From: Sycobia sp. Sy_11
Taxonomy: Eukaryota; Arthropoda; Insecta; Hymenoptera; Epichrysomallidae
Length of the DNA stretch: 64,000 nt
Direction of reading: 5' to 3'
Assembly (NCBI GenBank): GCA_018907035.1
Contig: JACCIC010000381.1
Span: 37,034 to 101,033, forward strand
The notes beneath the pieces were generated by a model. The model was not told where the DNA came from, did not search any database, and was given only the letters and a program-made list of their open reading frames with translations. Both the position numbers and the translations under genes were made by a program. Below are positions 1-64,000 of this stretch, piece by piece; within the stretch, counting starts at the first letter, position 1; each line of letters opens with the position of its first letter.

Positions 1-62
1 TTTAAATACCGCAGAGGAAAGCTGCTTTTGGTAATCTTCCTGTAGTTTCCTTCATCATTAAA

Positions 63-2163
63 ATGAGAGTAGAAGCAGGGAAAATTGACGGCAAGGTCAT
101 TGGGAAGGCTAGACCACCAGTCTCGCAGAAGGTGCCGCGAAAATCAATGACGAAAATACATCGTCTATTCGGCTCCTCGGAGAAAACGCATTCGCGACAA
201 AAAGGCAGCCTAGAATTATCCCTCCAAAAATTGGAGGCAATGGTTGCGTGCTTAAAGTACGCCGTGAAGATTGAGAAATCCGTGGAGTCATTTAAGTGTA
301 AGAAAAAATTTTCTTTATTTATTTATATTTATTATTTATGTATTCATTTTGTTTTTTCTTTCATTATTAATTTTAATTTATATAATTTCGTTATTTATTT
401 TATTTCATTCATTATTTCTTTCAATATATTTATTTCCTTTTATTCATTATTTATTTAATTATTATTTATATTTATTATTTAATTCATTTTTTATTATTTA
501 TTTTAATTTATTATTATTGTTATATCATGCGCCAAAAAATCTGACTTTTTTTCTCAAAATCTTATCAAAATAAAAAGCATATTGCGATTTGTGAATTTGC
601 GTAGATTTTAATTTTATATGTTATTGGAAATAGGAATTGCGCTAAATAAATGTAAATATTGTAGATTGGAGCGATTAGACGATATTTATCGAGGCGTTTC
701 TGAGAAGAACGCAATTATTGGTTAAATTACACGTTAGAACAAATAGGTAACAAGTAAACAAAATCAGAAATTCAGTGGCGATCTCCGATCAACATATCAT
801 ATGTTGCGTTAAAAATATATAAAAGAATGTATATTTTGAATGTATGTCGAACACCACAGCGACCGTCAACTATTTCACTACTGTGTAAGTGAGGCGAATA
901 CTCTCGACCAATCAGAGCGAACGTCTTAAGAAGTCAGCTACTCGCACGAGAGCTCCGCGTACCTTCTTCAGTCGACTTCTTTCTCCGTTCCTGAGCAGAC
1001 CTCCCATTTGCCGCTCTCGATATACTTCCTTCAAATCGAATTCCTTATCCACAACATTATTTTTTCCCCGCCTTTTCATTTTCCTGTCGACTCTACGAAA
1101 TTAACTAATTAATATAATAGTATTTAATTGTATAATTTCATTAGCTAATCGCGATAGATGGTACACGTTTCCATTAAAATTTGTTTGACGCTATTATCGC
1201 ACGACGTATCATTTTTTGTTTCGTGAATCGTAGCCATTTTCTATTGTTATACGACGCGAGAATTTTTTATTTTATTTTATTTTATTATTGCGTAACCGTT
1301 TATTGGTGGAATTGTACCTTTGCTAATTCGACAAACTCCAAGACCAATAAAGAATAGAGATAAAAAGGACTTCCTTAGAATTTGTTTAAATATTTTATTT
1401 TCCCGATTAACAAAATTAGGAAATTTTCGACAAATACGAGCTACTTATACACGCTTGGTAGCCGGCCAATCTACGGATGGAGCGACGAATGGATCAAACG
1501 AGCCCAGCATACACACCTTTCAGCCGCTATAGAAAATAGGCCATACACGCACTGCCAATACTTAGACGTCGCTATCCATTCGACAGCTTCGCTGCTATCT
1601 TTGCGATTCCAGAGGAGGATCGAAATCAAGACAACGCCTCCAAAGGTGGAACTAATACACACTGCCCTTGCCGAGTACCTGCCAGAGTAAAGGAAACGAC
1701 CGGTTTCTTGACCTGCGACGTAACAATTATTTATTTTGTTATTTATTTTTTATTTCATTACATAATTTATTTAATTCTATAATTCATTATGTTAATTATT
1801 TCAATTTATTTATTTTCATTTTTTTTCTATTTATTTTTTTATATAGTTTTTTTATATTTATTTTTTGATTTGATTTCAATTTATGTCATTATTATTTTTA
1901 TTGATTATTTATTTTAATTTATTATTTATTTTGTTACTTATTTTATTTAATTTCATAATTTATTTTCAGTTCCAGATGTCACAGAGATGACAAAATATTT
2001 TCAAATGAAAAATGAGCAGAAGGCAACCACATCTACATCGCAAAGATGTAGCCGCAGTCGCAGTCGTAGCTGCGGCAGCAGTAGCAGTTGCAACAGTCGC
2101 AGCAGCCGTAGCAATAGCGTAGCAAGCGTTCCAGACGAAAATGAAAAGGAGAAACGAAAATAA
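63..2163 (+). CDS. Outer two-exon Polinton gene, copy A, unknown function
   Basis: I do not recognise this protein. Predicted exon 1 is 63-297, ending at a good donor (GTAAGA at 298) in phase 1. Predicted exon 2 is 1970-2163, after a pyrimidine-rich acceptor TTTTCAG, and its two leading bases complete the codon. The join gives about 142 residues with no stop: a basic N-terminus (MRVEAGKID), a helical leucine-rich segment, and a tail of Arg-Ser dipeptides (SRSRSRSCG) ending in KEKRK, which suggests a nuclear or RNA-binding role. The 1.67 kb intron is AT-rich with a GC-richer block at about 560-1720, perhaps an insertion. Copy B has a two-exon gene at the mirrored position (62632-62038) with the same intron phase, which supports the model. 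Sequence similarity between them is weak. Extra internal exons cannot be excluded. Confidence 0.5.
560..1720. other. Intron block without recognised gene
   Basis: A GC-richer block between two T-rich stretches of the intron of the outer gene. It holds short open frames with no family likeness and one CCAAT box (about 910), so it could be an insertion or an alternative promoter and first exon. I see no terminal repeats. Confidence 0.3.
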
Positions 2164-2355
2164 TTTCTGAGGAAATTATATTATCATAGTCAAAATAAAA
2201 AAAAATAGATATAAATGTATTATGAATAAATAAATAAATAAATAAATAAATAATAAAAATATATATATTATAAATAAAAATAAAATTTCTTTTTTTTTAT
2301 TATTCAATCACCTTTCCTTAATCTTATCTTATTTATAATATAATTATAAAACTTG

Positions 2356-2356
<1 letters not shown>

Positions 2357-2412
<56 letters not shown>
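2357..2412. repeat. (AT)n microsatellite
   Basis: Uninterrupted AT dinucleotide run of about 55 bp downstream of the outer gene. Confidence 0.95.
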
Positions 2413-2416
<4 letters not shown>

Positions 2417-2578
2417 TAAGTGAAAAATATATTTAGTTTTAAAATAATAAAAATAAAATTAATATTTTATGAATGTAATTATTAATATACTTTTATAATA
2501 GTATAATAAATAAAACATAAATGTATTATTTATAATATTTTAGAAGTTAAAATATAAAAACGTGTATATATATATGAA

Positions 2579-2759
2579 GCCGATCGCTAGAGCGAAGGAC
2601 TAGTAACTCGGTGATCCGAGTTCAAATCCCGGTCTCGGCCGATTGATACAGGCACCGCTGTAATTATTTACATGTGCTTTGTTTACAAACACATCGTAGA
2701 CCCCCGTCGCTGATTAGCATCGATAATTGGAAGCATAAATAAAGCGACCTGAAATTACA

Positions 2760-2770
<11 letters not shown>
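2579..2770 (+). repeat. tRNA-derived SINE-like sequence
   Basis: A tRNA-like head at 2579-2640 has a box-B-like core GAGTTCAAATCC, and GCCGA at its start can pair with TCGGC at its end. The anticodon stem pairs poorly, so it is not a working tRNA. It is followed by about 120 bp unrelated to tRNA and an A-rich tail ending near 2770, the usual SINE plan. The Gypsy element sits in the AT tract right after the tail. A degenerate tRNA pseudogene is the alternative. Confidence 0.5.
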
Positions 2771-2790
<20 letters not shown>

Positions 2791-3737
2791 TGTAACGGTG
2801 CGCGTGTCCGCCTCGAGCACGAGGACGGCGGGCACGGCCGTTGCAAATCTGTGCCCGGCTGGGCTTAGCCCCGAAGGATTTCGGCGAGGGAGAGGGGCGC
2901 TCCGTGAAGGGCGAAATATCGCGTTGTGGGACGGCGCGTGGAATAGGATGGCTAATAGAGTACACTTGATGGTAATGGAAAAGAAAAGACAGATAATTAA
3001 AATTTAAATACGGTTTAATGCCGCGGCGCCAAAGATACACACACGATGCAGCGCCTATATACGAGGCGTGCGTGACGCAGGCCGAGGGTCGCCGAGGCGA
3101 CGGCGCGCGGGGCGTTCGGGAAGAGAGAGAGAGAGAGAGAAAAGGAGCTGCCACTTACAGAGGGCCGGAACCTGCAGGTCTCGCAGCGCGTTCTCGAAGC
3201 GCAATAGCGCCTTCCTTTGCCGGGGGCGGCGGTGACGTTGACCTCCGTGATGGGGCGGTTATTCCGCGTAGAAGGGGCGGACGACAATTCTTCCGCTCGA
3301 GCTCGTATTCGGCGCGGGTACACTACACTCCCTTGCACCACTGTAGCACCACGAGCGCGTTACCGGGCACTCTCCCCGAGGACGAGATACGAGGCGGAGG
3401 GGAACCTTGGAACACAAGGTAGGTTCCCACACACGATCCGTCGCGGCACGGCTTTAGCAACCAAAAAAAGAACACGGACGACGTGTGTAGAGGGCCGGTA
3501 CGCGGTGTCTTCTCCTCGCGGCTCTCTTTCTTTCTGCCTAATTCGCGCGCGTGGCTGTCTCTCCCCACTCCCCGCTCTCTCTCTCACTTACCTCTCCGCC
3601 GGTGGTTGTGCGTCGGCCTGAAACATACAAACATTTCTACATATAAATATACAGATAAATATGTACATGCTACGGCTGGAGAGAGAGCAACGGGACGGGG
3701 AAGGCAGGCGCACGCAGTGCTTGCGTTCCTCGTCACA
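2791..3737 (-). repeat. 3' LTR of Gypsy element
   Basis: 947 bp, plus-strand start TGTAACGG and end CGTCACA, repeated at 11674-12542. It holds about 78 bp (near 3050-3130) that the other LTR lacks. The break in the other copy lies at a GCAG/GAGAGA motif, suggesting deletion between short repeats. Confidence 0.95.
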
Positions 3738-3750
3738 CGCCCCCCCTCCA
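3738..3750 (-). promoter_or_regulatory. Polypurine tract of Gypsy element
   Basis: On the minus strand TGGAGGGGGGGCG lies directly against the start of the 3' LTR, where plus-strand DNA synthesis is primed. Confidence 0.85.
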
Positions 3751-3966
3751 GACGCTGGTAGCCGAAGCGTGACAGCTCGACCCAACATCTCTCTCTCAGA
3801 TCGACCATCGTGTCAGGATGAGGAACGGGGTGGCTGCGGTCTACCGCTGGGGATCACTGGGATGAGGAAGGACGGGTAAAGAAGTCCCTTCCCGAGACGC
3901 AGTTGTTTTTGGAGGGCACCTTTATTCGTGATTAGATTACATAGTTTTTTTTTCTTGTGTGGTGCC

Positions 3967-4872
3967 TCACTTGGTGTGGGCTGGCTTCGCTCCTTGGGGG
4001 CGATTCCGCTTTTCGGTAGCCCTGGGGGCGTGTTCTTCGTAATCGGGGTGGTTATGTTGGTTGGGGCACTCCCGTCCCCGGCGTACGCCCTCCAGCTTGC
4101 ACTGACTGCAACTGGGTAGGCGGATAGGCGCAAACTGAGGCGCGTCCGACGCCGCTTGTTCGCACCGGGCCTCCGCCGTCTTCCGCAGAGCAAACACCCG
4201 GTTGACGTGGACCTGTAGGCGTCTCGCCTCTACAGCGGTGTTGCTGCGGAAGGCTTCGAGGGCCTGAGCTGCCTCGACAACCGAGGGGCGCGTCCTTCCG
4301 GCGGTGTTGGTGTTCGACGGCAGGGTGGCCTGCATCAGCGAGCTCCGTAGCCGGTGCATTTCTAGGCGGCAGGCGGCCTGGAAGTCTTCCACTGCCCGGC
4401 GTGCGGCGCGCTCGCGCTCCAGCAGCCTGGTCGCCTCTCCGTCCGCTTCCTCCCAGCGGTGGAGTAGGGCGTTTTCTTTCCACCGGTGATCCGCCCAGGC
4501 GAGGTAGTCCACCTCGCCGAACTCCAGCAGCTCTCTTTGTCCGGGCGTCGCCCTCTGGACGAAGGTTTGGAGTTGTAGGAGGGCACTGGCCTCCTCGGCC
4601 TCCAGCTCCTGGCGCCGGATGTACACGCGGTCCAACCGCTGGCATAGGGCCTGGACGCTGTCGGGCCGGATGCTCCCTGCTTGGGGCGTCGAGTCTGGCT
4701 CGGCGGTCTTCGGCCATCCGCCCTCCTCGATCGCGGCGTACTCGAGGCCCACGAGCCCTGGGCTCGGCCGGGCGGCCGGGGGACCCCTCTTCTGGACTTC
4801 TATGCGCTGGAAGGCGGCCTCCAACAGTGAGCTGAGGATCTCGGCGGCTACCTTGCTCGGGGAGAGCGCCAT
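3967..4872 (-). CDS. Third ORF of Gypsy element, unknown 301-aa protein
   Basis: Open ATG-started frame 3' of pol, where some insect Gypsy elements carry env. It is not env-like: I see no signal peptide, no transmembrane stretch and no furin site. It is Ala/Arg/Glu-rich and predicted helical through most of its length (for example WKENALLHRWEEADGEATRL), so coiled coil is likely. The C-terminal part has CSQC, then C and HNH about 15 residues later (CSQCKLEGVRRGREC, NQHNH), which could bind zinc. The tail is basic. GC content is very high. It starts about 160 bp after pol ends and would need its own message or re-initiation. A late regulatory or nucleic-acid-binding protein is possible, but nothing seen proves it. 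Confidence 0.7.
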   Translation of the reverse strand: MALSPSKVAAEILSSLLEAAFQRIEVQKRGPPAARPSPGLVGLEYAAIEEGGWPKTAEPDSTPQAGSIRPDSVQALCQRLDRVYIRRQELEAEEASALLQLQTFVQRATPGQRELLEFGEVDYLAWADHRWKENALLHRWEEADGEATRLLERERAARRAVEDFQAACRLEMHRLRSSLMQATLPSNTNTAGRTRPSVVEAAQALEAFRSNTAVEARRLQVHVNRVFALRKTAEARCEQAASDAPQFAPIRLPSCSQCKLEGVRRGRECPNQHNHPDYEEHAPRATEKRNRPQGAKPAHTK

Positions 4873-5029
4873 TCTTTGTCCCTAAGAAGAAGATGGAAAG
4901 TTGACGTTATCTGATGGCCCCCTGGGCGCAACCTGGGCCGGGACGACTCCTCGGCGAGGGGACTCAACCGGGTGGTGGAAATCGAGGGACGTGCCGGATT
5001 CGCCGGTATCCCGTGGGCGAGTTGGGGAG

Positions 5030-8000
5030 TTAGTCGGCCCATTGACGGGCGCGGGTCTGGGCCCGAGTGCGGCGGGGGGATTGGTCCCGCGGCGGGATTG
5101 AGCGTCCGTGCTTCCTGGGGCGACCTACTTTTCGCCTCACCAGGTGCACGTCGTTATGGCAGGCGGCTCCGCTGTTATCGGGCTCCGCAGGGGCTCGCGC
5201 TTGGGTTTTTCGACGGGTTACGATTCGCGTCCTACGCGGCCTCCCTAATCTACGCGGTGCGATATCGGTCTTAGATCGCGTGGCATTGCCCGCGGGGGTA
5301 TCGCTTCGCACGCTTGTATCGGAATTACAATGAGGCGCGTCGTCGGGGCGCCGTACGCTCACCAGTGGTGTTACAATGCGGGTTCGCTCGCTCGCCTCGA
5401 CATTACAATTTGACGCATCGCGGTCACGCTCTTCGCCCGAAGGCTCTTCCGTGTCGGAACTGCTATCATCTTCGGGGTCGTGATCTCGATGGTAGGGCTT
5501 CAGGTCGGCGACGTGATGCTTACCAGCATCTCTTCCCGTAGAGTCGACCAGTCGATAAACATTCGTGCCGAGTTTCTCCGTGATGGTAAAGGGCCCGTCG
5601 AATTTTGGGGCCAGTTTGGCGCTGACGCCCTGTATGCCTGACGAGAGGATGCGATTACGCCGCCATACGCGATCGCCAATCGCGTAATGCACGTCGCGAC
5701 GTCTCGCATTATAATAGCGCGCTTGCTTTGCCTGCGCTTTCTGCGAGTTTTCCGCTGCCTTTAGATGGAGATCAGATAATTTCTCCATGCGCTCTTTCCA
5801 ATGTTGTAGAGCAGCCTCTTCTTGCGCAATCTGTGCGCGCTGCTCCTCCTGGCGACGATGTGTGCCAGGGGCTGAGGGGTGACGACCCGTGTTAAGGAAG
5901 GCCGGACTTACGCCAATGGAGTCTTGTACGGATGTATTGTACGCGAACATCAGCTCGGCGATGTGCGCATCCCAAGTACTGTGAGACTCCTCCATGAAGG
6001 CGATTATCGCGGTCTTCAGAGTCCTATTAACCCTCTCTACCGGATTGGCTTGAGCGTGATAAGGAGGTATCGTGGAATGCTCCACCCCACGCTGCACAAG
6101 GAATTTCTCAATGATTTTATTACGAAATTCGGTGCCATTGTCCGATAGGAATACTTCGGGCGTACCAAAGCGTAAAAATACGCGATCTTTCAACTCGCGG
6201 CGAATCGTTTGCGCATTCGCCTTTCTGATGGGGATACATTCTACCCAGCGAGTGAATAGATCCATGAAGACGAGCAAATACTCGTATCCCCGGGTAGATC
6301 GCGGAAATGGACCCATCACATCTCCAGCTACTATTTCCCAAGGGCGGGTGACCGTTCGATGGCCCATCAGGCCAGCTGGTGCAGCCTGCTGCACCTTACA
6401 TTGTTGGCACACGGTGCAATCACGGACAAATTGTGTGACATCTTTGTGCATTGATGGCCAATAGTATGATCGTGCAATTCGGTCATATGTTTTATGGCGT
6501 CCGAACTGACCAGCTGTGGGCTCCTCATGACATTCATGCAGAACGGTACGACGATCTTCTTTAGGCAGGACTAACTTCCACGCATCCTGGTCGTCTACTA
6601 AATCTTCGACGGCAGGATCGGGACGGTAGTAGTATAGTCGCTGCCCAACGACTTTCCACCATGGGAAGTTGGTCGGATCGCTCACCACTTTCTTACGAAG
6701 GCGCAAATACCAGGGGTCTTGCACATCGGTGACGCCGAGGGAGGCGACTTCGCAGGTCGGCTCGTCTTCGTACAAACGAGAGAGGGCGTCTGGTACGCAA
6801 TCCACTTTCCGGTGGATGACTTCGTAGTCATATCCCTGCAATTCCAAGGCCCAACGGGCGAGTCTGCCCGTGGGGTTGCGCAATGAGTGCAGCCAACGAA
6901 GGCTGCTGTGATCGGTTATCACCTGGAAGTGATAGCCCTCGACGTACGGGCGGAATTTACGCACAGCCCATAGCACGGCGAGGCACTCGCGTTCGGTGAC
7001 CGAATAGTTACGCTCAGCCGCAGTCATCGTGCGACTAGCGTAGGAGAGCCCGCGCTCCTCGCCATCAACAGCTTGCGTGAGCACGGCGCCTAGTCCCGAG
7101 TCGCTGGCGTCCGTTTGGATGACGAACGTTTCTCCAAACGACGGTCGAGAAAGGACGGGTGCAGATGCGACGAGCGCCCGGATTTGTTCGAAGGCTTGCT
7201 GTTGCTCTTCTCCCCAATGGTACTTGATGTTCTTCTTGGTTAATCGGGTGAGAGGCTCAGCAAGCGTTGCGAAGTTCTCTAAGAACTTGCTATACCAGGA
7301 CGCAAGGCCTAAAAACCTACGGAGCTGCTTCAGGTTCTTTGGTGCGGCGTAAGTCAAGATTGGTGCAATCTTATCCGGATCGGGTCGAAAACCGTCACGA
7401 TCCACGAGGACGCCGAGGAACCGTACCTCCGCGAGTCCGAATTTACTCTTCTGCCGATTGATGGTCAAGCCGGCATCGGAAATCCGTCTCAGGATATGTT
7501 CGAGCCACCTGAGGTGCTCGTCAAAGCTCTCCGTAGCGATGATCACATCATCGAGGTAGGCGAAGGCCACCGGCTCCATTTCAGGGCCGATCAGCTTGTC
7601 GCTTAACTGCTGAAAGGTGGCAGGGCCACCGGCGACACCATATGGCATACGGGTCCATTCGAATAACCCCATGCCTGGAACCGTGAAGGCAGAGAGGTGT
7701 CGCGATTCCTCACGAAGAGGGACCTGATGGTAGGCGCTGCTGAGGTCCAGGGTGGAGATGTATCGCGCATTTCTCAGTTTCCGTAAGATTACGTCCATGT
7801 AAGGAAGCGGGTACGCGCTGACCTTGGACACGGAATTCAATTTGCGATAGTGCACACAGAATCGGTAGCTCCCATCGCTCTTGCGAACCATCACGACGGG
7901 GCTAGACCATTCGCTGGTTGATCTGCGAATTACGCCCTGATCAAGCATCTTGCGAACTTGCGCATGCATTTCCAGCTCTATCTTCTGAGAGACCGGATAA

Positions 8001-8785
8001 TAACGCTGCTTAATCGGCTTAGCATCGCCGACATCGATCACGTGGTCGGTCAGATGCGTGCAGCCCAGAGGCTGATCAGCCGGAGGCAGCATCCGGTCGA
8101 GGAGTTCCTCGAGAGCTCGGCGTTGACTATCGTCAATATCGGCCAAGCCTATAGAGGCAAGCGAATACGCCGAAGTAACTGAGACGGTGCAGAGCTGTAA
8201 CGGAACGAAATCCGCAGTACCCTCGATCGACATGGTGTTGTCGCGCGGGTGGATGACCGCATTGAAGGCGCGGTAGAAGTCTGCACCGAGCAGACAGTCA
8301 TTTTCCAAGTCTGGAATTATGATGACGTCTAGCTCCATTTCTACGTCTGCTATGGCAAACGGAAGGGCCACCTGGCCTATTATCGGCTCAATTTTTCCTG
8401 TGGCGAGTCGAGCGCCAGATCCAGGGAAGGGTCGAACTAGACGACCGAGGGCAGATGCGATCTGCAGGCCGATTGCTCCGAGAGCTGTACGAGCAGCCCC
8501 TGCATCAAGCAGTGCATGAATGCGAAACTCGCCTATGCCTACCTGTACCCACCATCGTGAATACCGATCGGGGTCGACAATTGTGGCTGAGTCAGTGGAG
8601 TCACGGTCGTGATGCTCCTCCCTTACAGACAGGAGGGGGCAATCATCATTACCCTGTGTCCTCGCAGCTGCATGCTGATCTTCAGAGGTCTCACGGAGCG
8701 TAGGGGCGAGTTGGACCTCAATTACTCGCCCTTTTTCGCGTTTCCCGAACACTCGGGACAGCTGCGCAAGGTGTGGCCAGGCCAA
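5030..8785 (-). CDS. pol: Gypsy pol polyprotein: protease, RT, RNase H, integrase
   Basis: 1251 open codons. In order: aspartic protease with ALLDAGAARTA (DAGA in place of the usual DTGA or DSGA); reverse transcriptase with YPLPYMDVIL, LDLSSAYHQ and catalytic YLDD; RNase H with TDASDSGLGAVL and DALSRL; integrase zinc finger with HECHEEPTAGQFGRHKT and CTVCQQC; DDE core with AGDVMGPFP, LSDNGTEF and NPVERVNRTL, all three acids present. The C-terminus is long, basic and Arg/Ser-rich, with no chromodomain. The frame starts inside gag with no good ATG and lies in the -1 frame, so a gag-pol frameshift within the 64 bp overlap is expected. It copies and integrates the element. Confidence 0.95.
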   Translation of the reverse strand: MAWPHLAQLSRVFGKREKGRVIEVQLAPTLRETSEDQHAAARTQGNDDCPLLSVREEHHDRDSTDSATIVDPDRYSRWWVQVGIGEFRIHALLDAGAARTALGAIGLQIASALGRLVRPFPGSGARLATGKIEPIIGQVALPFAIADVEMELDVIIIPDLENDCLLGADFYRAFNAVIHPRDNTMSIEGTADFVPLQLCTVSVTSAYSLASIGLADIDDSQRRALEELLDRMLPPADQPLGCTHLTDHVIDVGDAKPIKQRYYPVSQKIELEMHAQVRKMLDQGVIRRSTSEWSSPVVMVRKSDGSYRFCVHYRKLNSVSKVSAYPLPYMDVILRKLRNARYISTLDLSSAYHQVPLREESRHLSAFTVPGMGLFEWTRMPYGVAGGPATFQQLSDKLIGPEMEPVAFAYLDDVIIATESFDEHLRWLEHILRRISDAGLTINRQKSKFGLAEVRFLGVLVDRDGFRPDPDKIAPILTYAAPKNLKQLRRFLGLASWYSKFLENFATLAEPLTRLTKKNIKYHWGEEQQQAFEQIRALVASAPVLSRPSFGETFVIQTDASDSGLGAVLTQAVDGEERGLSYASRTMTAAERNYSVTERECLAVLWAVRKFRPYVEGYHFQVITDHSSLRWLHSLRNPTGRLARWALELQGYDYEVIHRKVDCVPDALSRLYEDEPTCEVASLGVTDVQDPWYLRLRKKVVSDPTNFPWWKVVGQRLYYYRPDPAVEDLVDDQDAWKLVLPKEDRRTVLHECHEEPTAGQFGRHKTYDRIARSYYWPSMHKDVTQFVRDCTVCQQCKVQQAAPAGLMGHRTVTRPWEIVAGDVMGPFPRSTRGYEYLLVFMDLFTRWVECIPIRKANAQTIRRELKDRVFLRFGTPEVFLSDNGTEFRNKIIEKFLVQRGVEHSTIPPYHAQANPVERVNRTLKTAIIAFMEESHSTWDAHIAELMFAYNTSVQDSIGVSPAFLNTGRHPSAPGTHRRQEEQRAQIAQEEAALQHWKERMEKLSDLHLKAAENSQKAQAKQARYYNARRRDVHYAIGDRVWRRNRILSSGIQGVSAKLAPKFDGPFTITEKLGTNVYRLVDSTGRDAGKHHVADLKPYHRDHDPEDDSSSDTEEPSGEERDRDASNCNVEASERTRIVTPLVSVRRPDDAPHCNSDTSVRSDTPAGNATRSKTDIAPRRLGRPRRTRIVTRRKTQARAPAEPDNSGAACHNDVHLVRRKVGRPRKHGRSIPPRDQSPRRTRAQTRARQWAD

Positions 8786-10662
8786 CTACAGCCCCAGCAC
8801 AAGAACCGCGGATCAGGACCTGCTGTCCGACCTTTGTTCTTGTCACTGAGGGGCTCGTGCACCAGCTTTCCTTTGAAGGAGGGCTTCCTCTCCGACTTAG
8901 GTGAGGTCGACGCTCTGGTTTTTCCTGTACGCGGCGACCTCGGGCGTGAATCGCGACCGCTCCTCTTCGGGATAAGGGCTGTGACGCCTGGCGCCTCTAA
9001 ATCAGGTGAGGTGGCTCTAAAGCCAGCCTCTTGTAAAACTTCTCGCACCAGAGCTTTGAAGTTGGGTGGCTTCACGTCCACGGCCGCGATCCTTGGTTTC
9101 GGGCGCGTTCGAGACGTGTCGGCCGCATGGAAGGCCACTTCGGGCATTATGCAGTCCTCAGGTGATGGCGGTGGCTTATAATTTCGCTCCGCATCGAGGA
9201 CGCATTCGGCCTCTCGAGCAAGCTCGATTAGCCGATTGACGCTCGTAATCTTCTCCCGCGTAACTAACTTCTGTATCTCCGGGAGCTGTTTGTCGTCCGA
9301 CCATGGTTCTTCGAATCGATTGAGAATCGTTAACAAACAAAACACGTAGTCACGTGTTGGCTCGCGCTTCGCCTGCGTACGCCGCTGCGCTTCGCTGATT
9401 AGCTCAGCTTGGAAGCGTCGATCGACGCCGTAGCAGCTCCGGGCTGCGTGGCAGAACTCTTGCCACGTGGTCCAGTCTTTCCGAGATAGACGGTACCAAT
9501 GCAGGGCGACACCGTCGAGGAGCTCCGTCATGGCATTGAGCATGTCCTCGTCCGTGAGCGGTGTCAACCTGCGACATTCCGCGATCCTTTGCAGAAATTC
9601 TTCTACACTTTTCCTCTTGGCACCATTGAATCTAATTTTCCATTGGCGCACGGTCTTACCAATATCCGTGCGCTGGGCCAAGGTGCTTGACAGCGTTGAT
9701 CGCGTTGTATTCGCGGGCGAGCTCATCACATCTCGATCCATGTGATGTCCCCCCCTTCCAGGCCCTTGGTACCGAGGGTGGCAAGGAGCCGAAAACGTAG
9801 GCTCGCCGGTCGACCCTACAAACCTATTATTGTTGAGGTTTTTGTCACTTTCCACGTATTGCAGATCGTACGTGTCTTGGAAAGTGACACGGTCGCGTCG
9901 CGCCGATTTCTGCAGCTGCTGCTGGATGCTGGCTAGCGTAGCGTGCATCTCACTTTGCTTCTGCTGCAAATCTTGGACAGTGCAGTTTTGGTGTTGCATC
10001 CAAGTTTGCAGCATATTTTGCAGGCCATGTAATCCCTGACGAAGGTTTACATTGTTTTCGAGGTCAGTCGGTTGAGGCTCGACTGTTGTATTTGTCGCCT
10101 GAGATGCGACTTGGGTTCGACGTGTGGTGTCATTCGTGACACCCGAGTCGAGAGGCGTAATTACGCTCGTGGTGGCTGCCTGAATCGGCGATTCGTTGGC
10201 AGTGCTCCATGCGAGCGGTTCATGCCTGTTCATCTCGGCCAAATTGAAGTCGATCAGATTTTGTATTTGGTGATCGACAGCTGTTGTTATATTTTTTTGA
10301 TCTGTGCTCGGGTAAATTTCCCGAGCCTGCTGTATGTCAGCTGATCCGTCCGCTTGTTCGGCGTACGTCGCTTCCATTCGATCCAAAATATAAGTTTTTG
10401 TTGCGTCGCGCATTGTCGAGGTGACGATTATCTTCAACAGATTTTTATCTCTTCGCGTGCGTGTTTTTATACTATCACTGTCACTCTCGCATTCCACAAA
10501 ATCTCCTGGGCTATAATTTCCTGCTAGTCTATGGTATAGCCTAGCAGCCCTTTGAAATGGGGAACCCTCATTTTTTAATTCTAGTTCCGCTGTAATTAGG
10601 TTTGTTTCTTCCTCACATAGGCTTTGAAGCCAGTCGTTAAATTCGTTTGGCGGATTTGCCAT
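8722..10662 (-). CDS. gag: Gypsy gag, nucleocapsid polyprotein
   Basis: 646 codons from an ATG at 10662. The middle part contains the retrotransposon capsid region (WKIRFNGAKRKSVEEFLQRI, then MTELLDGVALHWYRL and FCHAARSCYGVD). The C-terminus has one CCHC zinc knuckle, CWGCSWPGHTLRSC, spaced C-x2-C-x4-H-x4-C, preceded by a basic Ser/Arg/Lys-rich stretch. The N-terminal third is polar with Gln-rich helices. The stop falls 64 bp inside the pol frame. The protein forms the particle that packages element RNA. The frame is intact. Confidence 0.9.
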   Translation of the reverse strand: MANPPNEFNDWLQSLCEEETNLITAELELKNEGSPFQRAARLYHRLAGNYSPGDFVECESDSDSIKTRTRRDKNLLKIIVTSTMRDATKTYILDRMEATYAEQADGSADIQQAREIYPSTDQKNITTAVDHQIQNLIDFNLAEMNRHEPLAWSTANESPIQAATTSVITPLDSGVTNDTTRRTQVASQATNTTVEPQPTDLENNVNLRQGLHGLQNMLQTWMQHQNCTVQDLQQKQSEMHATLASIQQQLQKSARRDRVTFQDTYDLQYVESDKNLNNNRFVGSTGEPTFSAPCHPRYQGPGRGGHHMDRDVMSSPANTTRSTLSSTLAQRTDIGKTVRQWKIRFNGAKRKSVEEFLQRIAECRRLTPLTDEDMLNAMTELLDGVALHWYRLSRKDWTTWQEFCHAARSCYGVDRRFQAELISEAQRRTQAKREPTRDYVFCLLTILNRFEEPWSDDKQLPEIQKLVTREKITSVNRLIELAREAECVLDAERNYKPPPSPEDCIMPEVAFHAADTSRTRPKPRIAAVDVKPPNFKALVREVLQEAGFRATSPDLEAPGVTALIPKRSGRDSRPRSPRTGKTRASTSPKSERKPSFKGKLVHEPLSDKNKGRTAGPDPRFLCWGCSWPGHTLRSCPECSGNAKKGE

Positions 10663-51669: not shown

Positions 51670-51715
51670 AAAAATCTTAATCACTCAGGTCAATTTTACA
51701 CAGCAACACGACACC

Positions 51716-52617: not shown

Positions 52618-52675
<58 letters not shown>

Positions 52676-52678: not shown

Positions 52679-52711
52679 TACACATTCGTCTATTCTTCAA
52701 TCAGTATCATC

Positions 52712-54124: not shown

Positions 54125-54307
54125 ATTAAATGAAAGCAATATAAAAGTAAAACATATGGATATATGGAAGGTCACTAGTTATTAAATATGAAAGACAGTG
54201 TATTATGATTATAATATTTATTTATGTAATTAAGTTACACATGTTTTGATTCTTTTTTTACAAATAAATAATGATAAGAAATTAATCTATGTGTGTTTTA
54301 TTAATAT

Positions 54308-54613
54308 TTAAGAAGTAGAAGTGTTAAACTTAAAACAACTACCGCCTTGATACACTATAAATAAACAAAGCTTATTTGCTTTGTTAGCCATATTTATGAA
54401 AAATTCTTCTTCTTTTAATAATGCCGAAGATATCTTTTGCGGCAAAAATATTTGAAAGTTATCGTCCAGCTCCGCAACGTCTTTGGTGCCATATCTTGTA
54501 GAGACTTGCTTAAGAGCAGTCACCATGTACTGCTGATTTTTCTCCAATTCTGGACATTTCTTCCGCGGCATAAACTCGCTCTCAGATATCTTGTTAAGAG
54601 TAGCTAAGTCCAT
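54308..54613 (-). CDS. Small Polinton protein, possible OB-fold ssDNA-binding protein, copy B
   Basis: 101 residues, same length as copy A, intact. MDLATLNKISESEFMPRK, YGTKDVAELDDNFQIFLP, LCLFIVYQGGSCFKF. Lies about 100 bp downstream of PolB. Equal length and open frame in both old copies suggest it was under selection in the active element. Confidence 0.65.
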   Translation of the reverse strand: MDLATLNKISESEFMPRKKCPELEKNQQYMVTALKQVSTRYGTKDVAELDDNFQIFLPQKISSALLKEEEFFINMANKANKLCLFIVYQGGSCFKFNTSTS

Positions 54614-54708
54614 TCTAAAGAAAAGAAAAAAATTTTTCTTTTTAATTCTAACGTAGTAAAAAAAAATTAATTTTTTTAAAGAGAAAATTAACTACGAATC
54701 TTAGCTTA

Positions 54709-57700
54709 TTAGATTAGTCTTGTTTTCTTTGGAGATGGCAGATAATTCTCAAACTCTTCAACTGCTCGAATGAGTTCCTCGTCATCCTCGATCTCTTCAC
54801 ATAGCTGATTCCCCACTATAATTTCTTCCTCTTCCATTTCCTCACGGAGTGCATCCCTTCCCTCGGCTTCAACTGAGCTTACCCCTTCCAAAACTTTCAA
54901 AATTTCTTCAGGATTCCATTCGTGCATTAGTTCGTCAGATATATTATACTCAATGCTTATTGGTTCACCTTGATTACTATAGAGCGTTACTATTTCTCGC
55001 ATAACTTGATTTTCATTAGTTACTTTATCCCTACTCTGTTGTTCTGCATGTACATCTGCCGTGACTCGAATCTCATTGCCGATTATATTCTCCCTCTCTT
55101 CTTCTCCAGTAGCTACACCTACTTGAGCTCTTTTTCCATTGGACTCATCGTATCCCCTCACATTATCCTTCCCCTCCTCTTCGATTTCCTGACCTGTACT
55201 TCCCATTATTTCCCTCTCTACCTTACTTGCAGCTTCCAACATTTGCTCCTCTAGGATTTTATAGTGACCCCAAGGTAATGTGTCTGTAGTATTAGGCAAT
55301 ATGTATCTTTTATCATCAAATGGACTTAGGGCAATTTTTTTCTGTTTTTCTGTATGCACTATGTGTAATTTTGAGTGAATGGTGCACTGCTCCCGTTGTA
55401 TAATTACAAGGTTTTCCAGGCATCTTCTATAATCATCGAATGTAATTGATTTCTTCACTACACCCGATTTAATACCTTTAGCTTTTTTTACTATTCCTCC
55501 TCCATCAACTAAAATACTGTACATTTTGCTTCGTAAACCAATAAATTCCATCATGATCTTTCGATTACATTCATCTTTCATTAGTCCAGGAATTTTTTTA
55601 TTTTTACGTGGAATTCCATACTGATTATTTTCATCATAATCAGAAGTATCAAATCTATGAATATCTTCTTTCATTATTTGATACATATCAATGTCCTCTA
55701 CTTCATATATCAAGCTGTCAGTTTCAGTATACAAGAGTTTACATATTTCGCCCACTCGCTGTTTCATGTAAGAGTAGTGAAAATCGTAGACTAATGTTTT
55801 GGATAAATCGAGGATACAAAGCCCAACGTATATAGGCTTTTTGATTGTTACACTTGTTTTTTTCAGCTGAATGGCAACTAAATTTTCATCAAAAATCGCA
55901 CAGCTATGATAATTAGGAAGAGATATGTGTGCTTCTGCTCCATATCGGCCAGTAAATTTATTTACTAACCGTACAACGCGAGATCGCTCTCGCTCAATAC
56001 ATTTTCCATAAACAGCATTAATTAAAAGTTTATAAAAGAGTTTTTCAAGCTCATTCTTTGCATGCTTTCGCTTTTCAGTATTTAGTACAACATATGATTT
56101 TAACCAAGGTTTCTGTTCAAAGCTCAAAATTCTATGTACTTTTTTCAATCGAAGACCATTGTCGAGCGCTTGCTTAAGGGCGCGATAATGAATTATATAC
56201 CTTGTTTTATCGTTCAAAGTAGTTAGAAGTTTCTTTTGTTTTGAGCCAGGTGGTGTATGATGCTCGGCACAGAAAGGTAAATCACGATGAATATCATGTA
56301 TTTCCTCTGGATACTCCAAATCTACTTCAGCAATATAACCTACGTCCGAATCTGATGGTGTATTGAAAAAGTCACGATTTGATTCATAATCAACCCATTT
56401 AAATTTTCCAACTGGTAAATGCTGTACCATCGCCCATCCATACAAATTATTTATATCATAATATAAAAGTGTCTTTGTCTTCTTTTTTTCATCATATGTC
56501 GATCCCATGTATGGATTATTTGTCTTTGCATATCGATTGCAGCACTGACTTATTCCACCTCGAATGCCTGATTCAATAAATAATAACATGCCAATATCTG
56601 TTAGAAGCTCTAATTCTACCTTCGTCATTTTTAGAGCTGCTGCAAATATTAATCCTGGAGTAGTGTAAAAATGTGCAGGACATAAGCCGTATGCTTTAAT
56701 AGATGTGTCTCGATAATTTTCAAAGACATCTGCTAAGAGTAGAACATCTGTTTTTAAATATAAGTCCGAATACTCTCCTAATGTTCTTATATTAAAACTT
56801 TGCCACACTTGAACAGCGTGCTTATAGTCTTCCTCACTAATACCTGAATCTGTCAATTTATTATAAAATTCATTTTTCGACGGCAGTTTTGTAGTTATTA
56901 ATTTATCAAGTCCATCTACAAAATCTTAAGGAAATATTCCTTTACGTCTAAGAAGATCAATATTTTCGTTTGAGTATCCATCTAATTGAAATGTCTGTAT
57001 TGCTATTGGTACATTATCTAGATAAGACGCAAGTTTCTCTAAAGATGATGGCAAAAATAGCCAAGAATCTAAGAATCTAAAACTCACATCACAGTCATCC
57101 ATATACTTTGTGAAGGAAATATATTTTTCCTTGTTATGAGGTATTAAGTTAACTCGACCTTTCATCAGTGTAGAAGTTCCAATTTCTTTTGAAATAAAGT
57201 GTGTATCATAATTGAGATTGTGAAAAATTACTGGAATAAATTTCGAGTCTTTATAGTTCAAATTGCAGGAATTATGGGCAGCACCTCTGAATCTAATGAG
57301 AAAAAAATTAATTTTGTAAAATAATTTGTTTTTCTTTATTATATTAAATTATCTTTTAAATTATTATATTAAATTTACCTTCCTGTTAAATGACAGTGAT
57401 CTCACACTACCAGTTGCTCATCCAAAAATGGTTTTCGACATATATGGCAAACGGCCGACTACTTAAAAGTCAACTCTTCATCATCTGTGAGTTTCATTGG
57501 TTTTGGATTTTTATAGAGATGATCAATCTGCTCACCAATTGATTTTAATTCACGCACAAACCAACTTGCGGGTGTCTCATCGTCTGCACTTTTCTGTCTA
57601 TATGCTTTGTAAACGGATAATTTGTCATCAAAGCTACATTTTACATAAAATCCTATACTGTATGCCTGGTGGAGTTTTCTGTAGGTTTTAATAAGCAATC

Positions 57701-59009
57701 AAAATCAGCGTAAACTACAAAAGGCACTTTTTCCCCTTTATTATAATCTTCAAATTTTCAAATATTATTCGATGAGTTTGGTAAATTTATTCGACAATCG
57801 TTAATATTTTTACAAACATTTTCATGATTTTCTAGCCTTTCTTCACTATAAAAATATTGTAAACATCTTTCACAATGATATAATTTTTGGTGAGTCTTGC
57901 TGACTTGTGAACCTACAAGTCTGGATATACTTTTAATCGCAACATAATGGAATTTAGGCACACTTCCATTATCATCAGAAATATTATTTTCTTCATACTC
58001 ATCGATGTAGAAATCTTGAATGAGAAGAAGATTTGCATGTTTCTCCTTCTTGTTTAATGAAATATGACAAGGTGATACTTCATATTTCGATCCATACTTT
58101 CTAAGCATATAAACAGTTACTGAAATATTATTCTATTTTTCAAATTTGGAAACATCTTTTAGTTTTACAGGAAATTCTATATCACCAAAGTTCAACTCGT
58201 TTGCATATTTATCATAATTATGAACTCTTTGAGGATTTTTTTCATTTGGATGTAATGCTGAAAGAATAGCGTATTTAAAGCATTGATTATCAGTGTTATG
58301 GACATTGATACATGCTCTTTTTGATGCTATGAACTTTGGCAGAGGAATAAAATGATCTTCCCTTGTGAGGTGAAAATTTTTTCATATTTATGCACAAACT
58401 TATAATACTTTTTAATGTCCATCCAGAATATTTTTCCTGAAATTCTTCTAGATGAGTAAGAAGAGGGTCCTTAATATGTTCCTCATACCATTTACCTAAA
58501 TCAGTAGACATGTATACTGTAGCACTCATACTTGTGAAATATTTAATATCTGTTGTTTCCTCTCCATTTTTCTGCATGGAAAATTCTGACATAAAATCAG
58601 AATTTACTTTTATTGCACCATATTCTTGTAAGCATGCTTGTACTTTATCCTCAATGAGCTTCTGTGCATCGAGCAAAAAACTTAAAATGTCCACATGTTT
58701 TAAATTAACCACAACACCTGTCCTTATTCGATTTTTAAAAGCTGATTGAACATCTCGCCATTCAACTTTAGCTGACTCGATAGGGATTAGACTACCTCCA
58801 ATTGGTGCTGCACTATCAAGATAAAACCGAAATCCTGCTTGTAAACATGACAAATGAATAATGTTTTTTTCAAATTCTCTCAGCTCTAACAAAGCCTGTT
58901 CAGTTATTGTTGAATAATTCTCGAGTTCGATTACGTTCAATTCACCGACACGTTCGTAAATATCACGACGTTGTTTCACTTGAAATTCGACAGACGAAAG
59001 ATAAGCCAT
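54709..59009 (-). pseudogene. PolB: Protein-primed DNA polymerase B, Polinton copy B
   Basis: ATG at 59009. The N-terminal region (EWRDVQSAFKNRIRTGVV) is open to a frameshift near 58370. Stops near 58137 and 57757. Exonuclease VVYADFDCLL near 57715. Intron at 57293-57378. A stop at 56926 follows RRKGIF. The main open piece 56856-54709 (715 codons) holds motif [13 protein letters not shown], motif B INAVYGKCIE and motif C YTETDSLIYEVE, where the first catalytic Asp is Glu (55723-55725). The last 180 residues are an acidic tail (LREEMEEEEII) ending PKKTRLI. It would replicate the element from its protein-capped ends. Several breaks plus the motif C change make it dead. Confidence 0.9.
57293..57378 (-). 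other. Spliceosomal intron inside PolB, copy B
   Basis: 86 bp, GTAAAT donor, T-rich, CATTAG acceptor, between the GR codons and the FRGAAHNSCN codons, exactly where copy A has its intron. Confidence 0.85.
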
Positions 59010-59703
59010 TTTACTTTTATTTTAACGTGAATTAATAAAATATATTTTAAAAAATAATTAAAATATATCAGACTTCACTTAATATTGCGTCTTTATTCAC
59101 TGTTACAATACAACACACTTGTATAACTGGCAATAGAAAAAATAAGAAAAATGAAACTGAACTTATTTAACTGTGGTGTAAAAACTGTGTTCCTCCAAGA
59201 AAATGTCTCGCTTTTAAAGGAAAATGAAAAATAAGGAGAAGGGGAAACAGAAGTGGAAGCACAATGTCAAGCCTGCGATAGAAAACATTCAATAGCGTGT
59301 TAGAATGAGAAGAATATATGTAGACTAAAACCAATCAAAATATCATCCTTTCTCCTTGAACGTCCAATCATAAACGTGATTTCCTACGAGGGGGCGTGTA
59401 GAGTTTAGGACCATCTAAATATCTACCGTTACTTCCTTTCTCAACGTACAAATGCTTTTCTTCTCCTACGCCCAATCGTAAGAACTTTCTCTAAGAATAG
59501 ACGGGATGAATTGACTTGTAACCAACCAAAAAAAATTCAATCTTCATCATCCAATCGAATCTATTTTATTTTTCTCAGCCAATTGTAGGACAGTTCTCAT
59601 TTCACGAGGAGGGGGAGAACTATTATAAAAATGAATGCATAAGCATAGAACTTACATTCATAATCAACACTTCTAACTATTGGTAAATAGAAATAAACTG
59701 AAA
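59010..59703. promoter_or_regulatory. Bidirectional promoter with CCAAT-box array, copy B
   Basis: CCAAT at about 59331, 59364, 59472, 59551 and 59579. TATAAAA at 59624 faces the two-exon gene, 75-80 bp before its ATG. CTTTAAAAG near 59212 faces PolB. The same elements in the same order occur at 13570-14239. Confidence 0.6.
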
Positions 59704-60440
59704 ATGGCTAGAGTGAGGGAATACGAAGTGATGTTTAGAAAAAATATTCTGAAGTATCCAGAAGATAAAGTATTCTTCTGCGACATGCAGGGTTTTCAGA
59801 CAAGAGGCCCGCAAACTTTCATTTTAAAGGAATTTAGTTTATTAGGTATGGAAAGAGGTGCACTACCTACATTATATATCTTTAAGCCACGATTTCCATG
59901 GAGTGACTTGACATGGAATGAAAAAAAAACAGTTCACTGGTTGCAGCGTGATTACCATGGGCTTGAATGGGATACTGTTAACATTCCATACCATAGGCTT
60001 CAAAGAACATTGGAGATATGCTGTACGGGACTAAAAAATTATATGTGAAGGGACGAGAGAAGAAGGAATGGTTGACAACCATTCTCCCAAATATGTAAGT
60101 AATTTGCATACTTATAATCATCTTTATATTTATTTCATGTACATATTTCAGAAAGTAATAAAAAATAAACCTTATGGAAAAGTATATTTTCATACAATGT
60201 TCATACATTGTTCATACTTTTTCATACTTTTTTATACTTTTTCATACTTTTTCATACTTTCTTATACTTTTTTCTAATTCCAGAATTATATCTGATATGG
60301 AGGAGGAGCTACATTGTCCATCATTGCAAACATTGCAGAGTGAAGGTCAAAATGTGATTTGCCATAACCATCCATTATGCAGGCGAAGTATACCAATGTG
60401 TGCGATACGGAATGTCACAATAATGCGTACATGGTTGTAA
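59704..60440 (+). pseudogene. Two-exon Polinton gene, copy B
   Basis: Unknown function. ATG at 59704: MARVREYEVMFRKNILKYPE, then FPWSDLTWNEKKTVHWLQRD. A one-base shift near 60015 breaks exon 1 before its basic end (KGREKKEWL). Donor ATAT/GTAAGT at 60095, acceptor TTCCAG ending 60283. Exon 2 is Cys/His-rich: HCPSLQTLQSEG, ICHNHPLC, MCAIRN, RTWL, stop 60440. The Cys and His spacing could bind zinc. Copy A has the same exon structure. Transcribed away from PolB. Confidence 0.75.
60196..60275. repeat. TTTTTCATAC minisatellite in intron
   Basis: About eight 9-11 bp units, the same unit as in the copy A intron. Confidence 0.85.
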
Positions 60441-61508
60441 AATTATTTAAGTGGAAAGTATGGACGACTTGAAATTGACTAAAAATAGCATTATTGTAAA
60501 CTGAAATTTGTAAAAAAATTATATTAATAAATACTATATATCTTGAAAAAAAATCAGATTTGTAATTTTTATTTCAATTATTAATATTATTGTATAATAT
60601 AAATTTTTATATTATATTATTCCTATAATTTTTTTTTTAGTTTTAAATAATTTAAAAAAAAAATATTGAAGTAGTTTTAAAAAAAAATAAATAAGTAAAA
60701 AAATATTGAAGTAATTTAATAAAATAACAAAATAATATCTAGTAAATCAATGAAAACAATTTTAAAAATGAATGAAAAAAAGTTGATACTATCAATTTTT
60801 TAAAAATAAAAAAAAAAAAAATAAGTCAAAGAATAATAAAGTAATTTAATAAAATAAAATAGACTAATAGTAAATAAATGAAAAAAATAAGTTGTCTTAA
60901 ATGAATGAAAAAAAATTTGTTACTATCAATTTTTAAAAAATAAAAAAAAAAAAATGTTTTATATACTATTCTTGAATACAAAAACTGTTTCAATTAATTT
61001 TAATTAATGATATTATTATTTTATTAATTATGATGAAAGTATTTTTTTTTTTTGACAAGAGATAATGTAAATGTACTATTATATAATTATTATTGTTAAT
61101 TAATTAAATTATTATTAATGTACGTTCTTTATTCTATGAGGAAAGGTAGGATAAAAGGTAAAACATCATAATTTGTTTTTTCCCATTTTTTTTTTTTTTT
61201 TATTTTTTTTTTTACAATAACTTCTTTAATTTTTCATTTAATTTATTCATATATTGAATATATATTGAATATATATATTGAATAATTTATATTCATATAT
61301 TTTCATACATTATTATTATTATATATTATAAATGTACTATTATATAATTATTATTGTTAATTAATTCAATTCTTATAAATGTACGTTGTTTATTCTATGA
61401 GGAAAGGTAGGATAAAAGGTAAAACATCATAATTTGTTTTTTCCCATTTCTGTATGTTTTTTTTTACAATACATTTTCTTTAATATTTTCATACATTTTT
61501 ATTCATAT

Positions 61509-61556
<48 letters not shown>

Positions 61557-61850
61557 TGAATAATTATATTCATATATTTTCATATATTACTATTATTATA
61601 TATTATAAATCTACTATTATATAATTATTACTGTTAACTAATTTAATTATTATTAATGTACGTTCTTTATTCATGAGGAAAGGTAGGATAAAAGGCAAAA
61701 CGTCATAATTTTGTTTTTTTCCATTTCTTTAGTTATTTTTATTATTTTTCTTTACAATACACTTTCTTTAATATTTTCTCATACATTTTTTATTTTATCT
61801 ATACATATTACATATACATATTACTTATACATATACTTATTATTCAATAT
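60441..61850. repeat. AT-rich tandem repeats between convergent genes
   Basis: Two AT-rich units of about 140 bp at 60660-60955, then about three units of 272-278 bp whose cores (GAGGAAAGGTAGGATAAAAG, followed by GGTAAAAC or GGCAAAAC) lie near 61138, 61399 and 61675. No coding frame. Confidence 0.8.
61518..61552. repeat. (AT)n microsatellite
   Basis: AT run within the second 275 bp unit. Confidence 0.9.
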
Positions 61851-62037
61851 TATTCATTTAATTGCATTTTTTTTCTAATCTTACATCTTGCACTATCCTT
61901 GGCTGCGCTTGGGGAAGTTCGGCGTGATTTCCTCACGCTCGAGCAGCTTGAATATCGCATACTTGCGATGGATGGGCTGCGGCTGTGGTGCTGCGTCATC
62001 CTCGGCGTTCTAGGACAGCTTCGTTTTCTTCCCTTCC

Positions 62038-62632
62038 TCACCGAACGGCCTCCTTGGACCGTTTGCGATGCCCATCGCTTCCATTCTTGGTCCCTAGAAC
62101 AGATAAACAAAAAAACATACATATTAATATAATTAAATATAAAATTAAATATATTTTAAAAATTAAATATATAAATAAAAATATGTATTTATTGTATAAA
62201 TTATATATAAATAAATATATGTTGAAATAGAAGAATATTAAAACAAATTATTATTTCCTTACCTCCATCTAGCTTTTCGAAAAATTCCGCGAATTTGACC
62301 GATTGACGGATGGCTTCCGTCATCTCCTTCGCTCTTCGATAGAGCGCTTTCCAATCGGTTTGCGGCGCCTGGAAAGCCTGCTCCTTAACCTCCTCTTCAA
62401 GGCTGGACGTTACAGCCTTGTCAGCGAGGCTGCGATGATTGATATTGGCGTCGTCGGCCGTGCATCCTCCTCCTCCTGCTCTTCCTCCCCAACAGAGTCC
62501 ATGGATTTTAGGTACTTCCCCTGCTTCGGGGAACTTTTCCACAGCAGGCAGCCGCTTCCCGGTGCTGATGCTGTTGCTGTTGTTATTGCCGTTGCTTCTG
62601 CTGCTGCCTGCCGTGCTCACAGCTACCTTCAT
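62038..62632 (-). CDS. Outer two-exon Polinton gene, copy B, unknown function
   Basis: Exon 1 62632-62263, ATG, 123 codons, phase 1, donor G/GTAAGG. Intron 62262-62094 with TTATCTGTTCTAG acceptor. The spliced frame ends after a basic RKRSKEAVR at 62038. Exon 1: Ser/Asn-rich start, Gly-rich middle, helical end (WKALYRRAKEMTEAIRQSVK). A second frame past 62093 (RSCPRTPRMTQHHSRSPS) is Arg/Ser-rich like exon 2 of copy A and stays open to 61850, so a small indel may have moved the true end. No known family. Confidence 0.5.
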
Positions 62633-62639
62633 TTTTCCA

Positions 62640-63100
62640 ATTTTTAATATTATTAATCTTTGAAATTTGAAGGCAGATTGTGATGGAAAAACTGACTACG
62701 ATTCCGCTTTTAATACAGTTTTCCAGTGCTGACCTTTTATGAGAAAACGTTTCTATTGGTTAAAAAAAAAAAAATAAAAAAGAAGAACCGCCTTCGTTTA
62801 CTATCTTATGGGAAGGATGGTTCACCCCTTCTACTTTGATGCACGAAAACTTCCTCATTGGTGCTGGAGCATAAGTTTTCTCCTCCCTCCTTGATAATCC
62901 ATCCCCCTCCCACCACTTACTTGTATGGTGATCGGTTATATTTTCTAATGGACCAAATGAAAATTTTAACCTCCTGCCTCTCAGCCACAGCAAACGTATA
63001 TTATTCCTCATTGGTGAAGGAACACAAATTTTCTCTCCTCCCTCTGAGACTCGGTGAAGCGTACGTTATTCGTCATTGGTGGAAATTTATCACTCCATAC
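62640..63100. promoter_or_regulatory. CCAAT-array promoter of the outer gene, copy B
   Basis: ATTGGT at 62755, 62857, 63010 and 63075, the last three in contexts like TCATTGGTG(A/C/G). A CATAAAAGG box (minus strand) near 62740 lies about 100 bp before the ATG. Same design as the PolB promoter, which ties this gene to the Polinton. Confidence 0.55.
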
Positions 63101-63299
63101 GCAATAATGAGCTAAGCGTGCGCCTAGCAAAGACAAAATTTTTCCCCACAATCGCTCGCTATATCTTTCTAATGACCTGTCTATCTCGTATGATCTATGA
63201 TTTTAGGCGGTTTCATCACGTTCTTCTTTATTCGAGCGAGAAAGCGTAGCACTAATAAGAAAAAATACCTCGCTTCCAGCATTTAATATGATCTCACCT

Positions 63300-64000
63300 G
63301 TTCCTTATAACAATACGCATCTATAAACATTAACGATAAGCGGATTAAACTATATGATTAGTCACCCTCGGTCAGTATATCGAGAGGCGCACGTGTTCGC
63401 CTCTCCTCGGACCTACTTTTCCATGTTTCTGCCAAGAAATAAACCATTTGAAAAGGAAACGCCTATAATGCTGGTTTCCCACTGTCACTCCCTTGGATTT
63501 CCAATCGCATTGATGTTGTATTCTAACCGAAATCGTAAAGATTTAAAGCGAGAGAGTGACAAAGAAAAATAGAAACATGATCTTGCTTACAGTATATCGT
63601 ATTGTCTCCCGTGTTTGCTATAACAATAGACATTTATAACCATCAACGGAAAGCGCATTATCCTAATTGATGAGTTAACCTCAGTCAGTCGGTCAAGAGG
63701 TGCACGTGCTCGCCTCTCGTCAGACCCGCTTTCACATGCTCCTTCCAAGCAGTGTACCTTTTCGAAAATAGAACTATACGTTGGTTTCCCGCAGTCACTC
63801 CCTTCTTTTCAATCGCAAGGATATTATACTCGGTCGAAATCAACAAGATACAAATCTAGAGAGTTACAAAGAAAAAGAAAATCATCTTGGTTATAGTTAT
63901 CCTAATTGATGAGTTCACCTCGGTCTTGCACGTGCATCTGCGGCAAGCGCATTAGAACAGGTAAGCGGATTATACTAATGAGGGTGCAGGGGGGAGGGGG
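63300..64000. repeat. Diverged tandem repeat, unit about 310 bp
   Basis: Units begin near 63306, 63616 and (partial) 63885. Shared words: TATAACAATA, TCGGTCA, GTGCACGTGCTCGCCTCTC in unit 2 against GCGCACGTGTTCGCCTCTC in unit 1, TGGTTTCCC, CACTCCCTT and AGAGAGT. No coding frame. Could be the long terminal repeat of Polinton B or unrelated flank. The window ends in a G-rich run. Confidence 0.65.

Follow-up and report, generated by a model that had tools for sequence, protein, structure and literature searches.

Two facing Polinton-type elements and their ends

The 64,000-nucleotide stretch of the hymenopteran Sycobia sp. Sy_11 analyzed here (hereafter the window; C314:37034-101033, C314 being our handle for its contig, JACCIC010000381.1) carries two Polinton-type elements, A on the left and B on the right, which lie in opposite orientation with their capsid ends facing each other across a 22,623-bp spacer (between 24816 and 47440). 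The original prediction of such a mirror-image pair is borne out, in that the homology between A and B is inverted and runs in collinear blocks of 62-91% identity. A sensitive search found no outer element end within the window, whose right edge is also the end of the contig, as C314 stops at 101,033 bases. The loss of the outer ends in both copies was rejected when these ends were found in the sequence beyond the window: A extends over C314:33805-61849, its outer end lying 3.2 kb before the window, and B runs on past the end of C314, its outer end being read from an overlapping contig, C184. The practical lesson is that outer ends seemingly lost in a fixed window stood just outside it. A measures 28,045 bp with a nested Gypsy element and 18,293 bp without it, and B 17,251 bp, the final 690 bp of which were taken from C184; the latter two sizes both fall inside the 15-20 kb given for Polintons in PMC4028283. 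The elements and their ends are the following:

1..24816, minus strand: copy A, part in the window, with its capsid end on the right; both ends of the element have a terminal inverted repeat (TIR) and the 6-bp duplication
24580..24816, minus strand: inner TIR of A; identical to the outer TIR at 217 of 236 aligned bases
24817..24822, no strand: target-site duplication of A, right copy CTTGGA; left copy just outside C314:33805
47434..47439, no strand: target-site duplication of B, left copy CAGATA; right copy after C184:16995
47440..47682, plus strand: inner TIR of B; identical to the outer TIR at 233 of 241 aligned bases
47440..64000, plus strand: copy B, part in the window; capsid end on the left, last 690 bp of the element from C184

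TIRs of about 240 bp are present at both ends of A and both ends of B. The terminal sequence that the two copies were predicted to have in common is there at both inner termini, which read AGTAGATAGGCTAT (24816, minus strand; 47440, plus strand), while the inner TIRs of A and B can be aligned to each other over the first 45 bp only. The 6 bp adjoining the inner termini differ between the elements, as originally noted, and each recurs at the far end of its own element: CTTGGA stands directly before the TIR at C314:33805 and again after 24816, and CAGATA directly before the TIR at 47440 and again after the TIR at C184:16995, a perfect 6-bp duplication in either case. Each element thus has a complete insertion footprint of its own, and A and B therefore arrived separately. 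Hence, A and B are almost certainly two old and separate insertions into the germ line, made by Polinton (Maverick/adintovirus-type) subfamilies that are related but distinct; this upholds the preference for separate insertions expressed in the original prediction. Both junctions of A are internal to a single contig. For B, the start of C184 matches the window (47700-64000) at 99.86% over 10,003 columns (1 mismatch, 12 gap openings) and, in the next block, at 98.6% over 6,344 columns (13 mismatches, 61 gap openings); the matching CAGATA makes it likely that C184 represents the same locus as the end of B.

Among other element pairs in the genome, a perfect 6-bp duplication is present in four of six, with a single mismatch in another and 4 bp in the last, as read by eye. 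In the element at G000:C421:1852711-1869081, the joined flanks form a 20-bp palindrome and the direct repeat is just 4 bp. A lone 13/14 match to the Polinton terminus lies in the spacer (37737-37750). The TIR-like 13-mer at 37750 was not accepted as an element end, no repeat being seen past it; at up to two mismatches such a 13-mer has three matches in the window, a number also attained in 3 of 100 shuffles.

Gene content, divergence and decay

The gene order is the same in both elements, as had been predicted: capsid, A32-type ATPase, DUF8207, rve integrase and PolB. Their features in the window are:

14240..18292, plus strand: A PolB gene; along the alignment to residues 1-1125 of P0206, four in-frame stops, several frame changes and one gap of some 52 residues
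15910..15993, plus strand: A PolB intron, GT-AG, 84 bp
18923..19850, minus strand: A integrase; frame broken in the same stretch as that of B
20252..21170, minus strand: A DUF8207; one frame change
21239, 21473, 21680 and 21791 (in-frame stops), minus strand: A counterpart of the ATPase, by homology to B
23271..24492, plus strand: A gene for the major capsid protein; broken, spread over three frames
47933..49169, minus strand: B gene for the major capsid protein (PF21738), with one frame change
50542..50889, minus strand: B phospholipase A2-like domain (PF08398, E 8.6e-13), between the capsid and ATPase genes
50956..51666, plus strand: B A32-type packaging ATPase frame (PF04665)
51716..52627, plus strand: B DUF8207 (PF26634 in relatives); uninterrupted
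53199..54112, plus strand: B integrase; rve and a sub-threshold C-terminal chromodomain match, with the frame broken between the parts
54712..59009, minus strand: B PolB gene; along the alignment to residues 1-1125 of P0206, five in-frame stops and two frame changes
57293..57378, minus strand: B PolB intron, GT-AG, 86 bp, at the same codon position as that of A

Pfam finds the capsid, the rve integrase, a B-family polymerase and the A32-type ATPase in B and names the capsid and the integrase in A, whose PolB stays below the threshold and whose ATPase and DUF8207 were placed by homology. The double-jelly-roll capsid (PF21738) is recovered with E 4.8e-41 in A and 2.4e-65 in B, the integrase (PF00665) in both, and the packaging ATPase (PF04665) in B with E 4.6e-06. 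PF03175, for PolB, scores above the cut-off on the B piece 54712-56925 and below it on an A piece, and both PolBs have homologs from Nasonia and an adintovirus. DUF8207 is the precomputed domain of relatives of the B frame 51659-52675, and its predicted structure is weak (pTM 0.44). By their capsid, integrase, ATPase, TIRs, 6-bp duplication and size, both elements belong to the Polinton/Maverick elements of the adintovirus type. The B frames 50080-50463 and 49349-49792, candidates for an adenain-type protease and a penton or minor capsid protein, gave no match above the cut-off in a profile search; by eye, the former resembles adenain. Scans with Rfam (at gathering scores) and for tRNAs found nothing. 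Of the two introns that the copies were originally held to have in common, the one in PolB stands, at the same codon; the other introns seen belong to the outer genes, whose first exons are without significant similarity between A and B.

Pooled over 2330 codons from eight of the ten gene pieces tried (the other two yielded no codon pairs), A and B differ with a dN of 0.121, a dS of 0.689 and a dN/dS of 0.18, the ratio ranging from 0.11 to 0.45 by gene piece. As a pair duplicated from an already dead insertion should come close to a ratio of 1, the divergence arose mostly under constraint; judging from these sequences, most of it was built up while both lineages encoded working proteins. With a pooled dS of 0.69 and inner TIRs that part after 45 bp, we also replace the original description of two copies of one Polinton by one of two subfamilies. 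The aligned pieces hold 11 in-frame stops in A and 5 in B, none at a common position (the count excludes the natural end of the 54308-54691 frame, which is present in both), and frame changes in these pieces fall at different places in A and B. The exception is the integrase, where the same stretch is affected in both. However, A-like and B-like relatives keep the integrase in a single open frame (323 and 311 aa), so this break was not inherited from one dead ancestor; the same uninterrupted frames led us to reject programmed frameshifting. Read in its own frame, the C-terminal part of the integrase has a dN/dS of 0.09, as compared with 0.80 when it is read in one wrong frame.

Synonymous divergence between A and B is uneven: fourfold sites differ at 33/167 positions in ORF49.3, the ATPase and DUF8207 against 133/272 in PolB (p 5e-10, the genes having been grouped after the values were seen), which suggests recombination between lineages as the simplest reading. 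Midpoint-rooted trees of single pieces place A and B as sisters among the proteins compared for the capsid, for DUF8207 and for four pieces of PolB, with support of 0.72 to 1.0; in the tree of one further PolB piece, Nasonia proteins group with A and B, and the distance of Nasonia PolB to A or B is about that between A and B.

Origin of the pair

We propose that each element would have arrived as linear DNA with TIRs, copied by its own PolB, and that the integrase would have joined this DNA to a new site, leaving the 6-bp target duplication; this chemistry of replication and integration is inferred from the known biology of the family. After insertion both A and B decayed, and we put the facing of their capsid ends down to chance. 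The probable order is A, then B, and then the Gypsy retroelement into A. A is placed before B because its TIRs have more mismatches (19/236 against 8/241; Fisher p 0.029), because it holds more in-frame stops, and because it is further from the outgroup protein: at sites where A and B differ, B is nearer to that protein in 17/17 comparisons, 11 of them with p below 0.05, although the comparisons are non-independent.

A mirror-image pair could alternatively stem from a single insertion that underwent an inverted segmental duplication and was later split by other insertions, as the original prediction allowed. The opposite orientation, the common gene order, the one intron position in common and the integrase frames that change within one and the same stretch would agree with this. 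However, A and B each have their own 6-bp target duplication, dead duplicates should have drifted toward a dN/dS of 1 rather than stay at 0.18, and no disabling stop in the aligned pieces is common to both. Homology is also lacking directly beside the inner ends (about 1.7 kb each), where the observed score was reached by 29 of 40 shuffles in a flank comparison of the kind once suggested as a check. The outer genes, too, differ between A and B: the best score of exon 1 is matched by 324 of 2000 shuffles, on which ground these genes were rejected as one duplicated flank. A match between the outer stretches (88 bits against a shuffle maximum of 45) was likewise dismissed as flank homology, for these stretches lie inside the elements and the match rides on AT repeats; it does not exceed the 92.5 bits found between window 1795-2015 and the spacer. 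The duplication is refuted by the test of all four ends, unless C184 is not the continuation of B, and we hold it to be highly improbable. The pair might also be an artefact, in which the assembly set out two alleles, or a single element twice over, as mirror images, and the elements do strain the assembly, as C314, C184 and C156 all end inside Polintons. Yet A and B differ at about half of the PolB fourfold sites (133/272), their termini and flanks differ, and both junctions of A lie inside one contig; A and B are too divergent for one copy assembled twice, and this explanation deserves as little credence as the duplication.

Several observations do weigh against separate insertion as set out above. 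The outer end of B comes from another contig, which could represent the other haplotype or, with a lower likelihood, a copy made very recently. Beyond 57.7 kb, 61 gap openings and 13 mismatches separate B from C184, and some of the lesions of B may be assembly errors. Three wider comparisons (the spacer halves, and each inner flank against the outer stretch of the other copy) beat all 40 of their shuffles, with low scores of 44 to 51 bits that we attribute, without proof, to AT-rich repeats lost in dinucleotide shuffles. Finally, the order of A before B rests on modest statistics.

If A and B are separate insertions, their arrangement calls for little further explanation. The 621 Mb searched hold at least 150 integrase matches (all 150 scored candidates, the best of 3680) and at least 131 capsid matches (130 scored candidates of 1766). 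With so many related integrases, two elements in 34 kb, in either orientation, are unremarkable, and as only two orientations are possible, half of all neighbours should be inverted by chance. The four-end test thereby settles the mirror image as chance. The insertions could instead have been targeted to this kind of region, with a functional clustering, and three elements do lie on one 101-kb contig. Among the 150 best-scoring integrase places, 3 pairs lie within 35 kb, 7 within 52 kb and 13 within 100 kb, where 1.3, 1.9 and 3.6, respectively, are expected under uniform placement, with no control for composition or contig breaks. However, these places are the best-scoring of 3680 candidates and many lie close to the end of a contig, clusters would also arise if insertions in genes were selected against, and no target motif was seen by eye in the flanks of six other elements, no dedicated motif search having been run. 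The suggestion of a favoured region in the original prediction finds weak support in the excess of close pairs among these selected places; on balance, we regard a functional targeting as unlikely.

Outer genes, neighbouring elements and known relatives

Beyond PolB, each element has an outer gene, listed here with the retroelement nested in A:

63..297, plus strand: A outer gene, exon 1
1970..2163, plus strand: A outer gene, exon 2, Ser/Arg-rich
2791..12542, minus strand: Gypsy long terminal repeat (LTR) retroelement nested in A; LTRs at 2791-3737 and 11674-12542
61900..62632, minus strand: B outer gene, probably of two exons; uncertain model, with indel differences from C184 near the contig end

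Exon 1 of the A outer gene has 120 matches genome-wide (among 148 candidates, all scored). Such a match lies within 20.5 kb of 18 of the 33 lowest-ranked (A-like) integrase places, that of A included, always on the opposite strand, as against 1 of the other 117 places (same strand, 57%), the division into 33 and 117 having been drawn after the list was seen. Among the ends of four other elements, C216 carries both A-type exons, two have the PolB side visible without an exon-1 match, and the fourth was read from the capsid side. Between A and C216, the outer gene retains the same splice sites and shows a dN/dS of 0.21 over 136 codons; its dS is 0.60, as against only 0.10 in the N-terminal part of PolB from the same two copies, a difference in keeping with an outer part that can be replaced. 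We put at about even the chances that these Polintons are modular, with a conserved capsid-ATPase-integrase core exchanged between lineages and a PolB-side end serving as a replaceable slot for either a spliced gene for a small Ser/Arg-rich protein under past purifying selection (A-like) or, at the mirrored place, a different two-exon gene (B). A spliced PolB and outer gene would, if true, make these virus-like elements dependent on splicing in the host nucleus.

A third, B-like element starts at the left end of C314, from a comparison of C314:1-10000 with window 48126-57235, and Polinton sequence is still matched at C314:11,819. Its successive blocks are 95.8, 97.8, 99.4 and then 86.8% identical to B, some 605 bp of B (54356-54961) being matched twice where the identity last changes, and its integrase piece is 100% identical to that of B, including the open-frame end at 180 residues; the element has the look of a chimera or of a conversion tract. 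Its sequence is also found at the end of C156. The Gypsy element in A is young, its LTRs being identical at 856 of 869 aligned bases (98.5%), and has a GC content of 0.534, with stretches near 0.63, within an AT-rich setting. The spacer holds pieces of LINE-type reverse transcriptases and mariner transposases (26914-28877 and 38724-46267) and an inverted repeat (41470-41849/42118-42520, 91.6%) that overlaps sequence also present outside the window. With its many Polintons, open as well as decayed and drawn from two lineages or more, this genome would be a good place to study recombination and lineage-specific outer genes.

The closest named relatives come from other Hymenoptera. Nasonia vitripennis proteins are 82-85% identical to the B PolB piece over 60-80% of the query. 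The Megastigmus wasp adintovirus (TPA, P0004 and P0305) is 64% identical to the B pieces in the capsid and 59% in PolB; the B capsid piece is closer, at 73%, to an unnamed contig. Judged by these protein matches, the host would probably be a chalcidoid wasp. In the protein records of that adintovirus, PolB is one protein of 1254 aa, whereas the PolBs of A and B are broken and have an intron. Scans of viral contigs produced no relative beyond two distant PolB loci. According to PMC6035795, the Polintons/Mavericks of Nasonia vitripennis, Leptopilina and braconids have a similar gene set and are abundant in parasitoid wasps; the Maverick/Polinton content given there for N. vitripennis is 1.452%, and the genome studied here has at least 150 integrase matches. 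The vertebrate Mavericks of PMC8097293 likewise have TIRs and 6-bp target duplications, with 96% of their loci described as eroded; intact copies are reported there as intronless, in contrast to A and B, both of which have a PolB intron of 84-86 bp.

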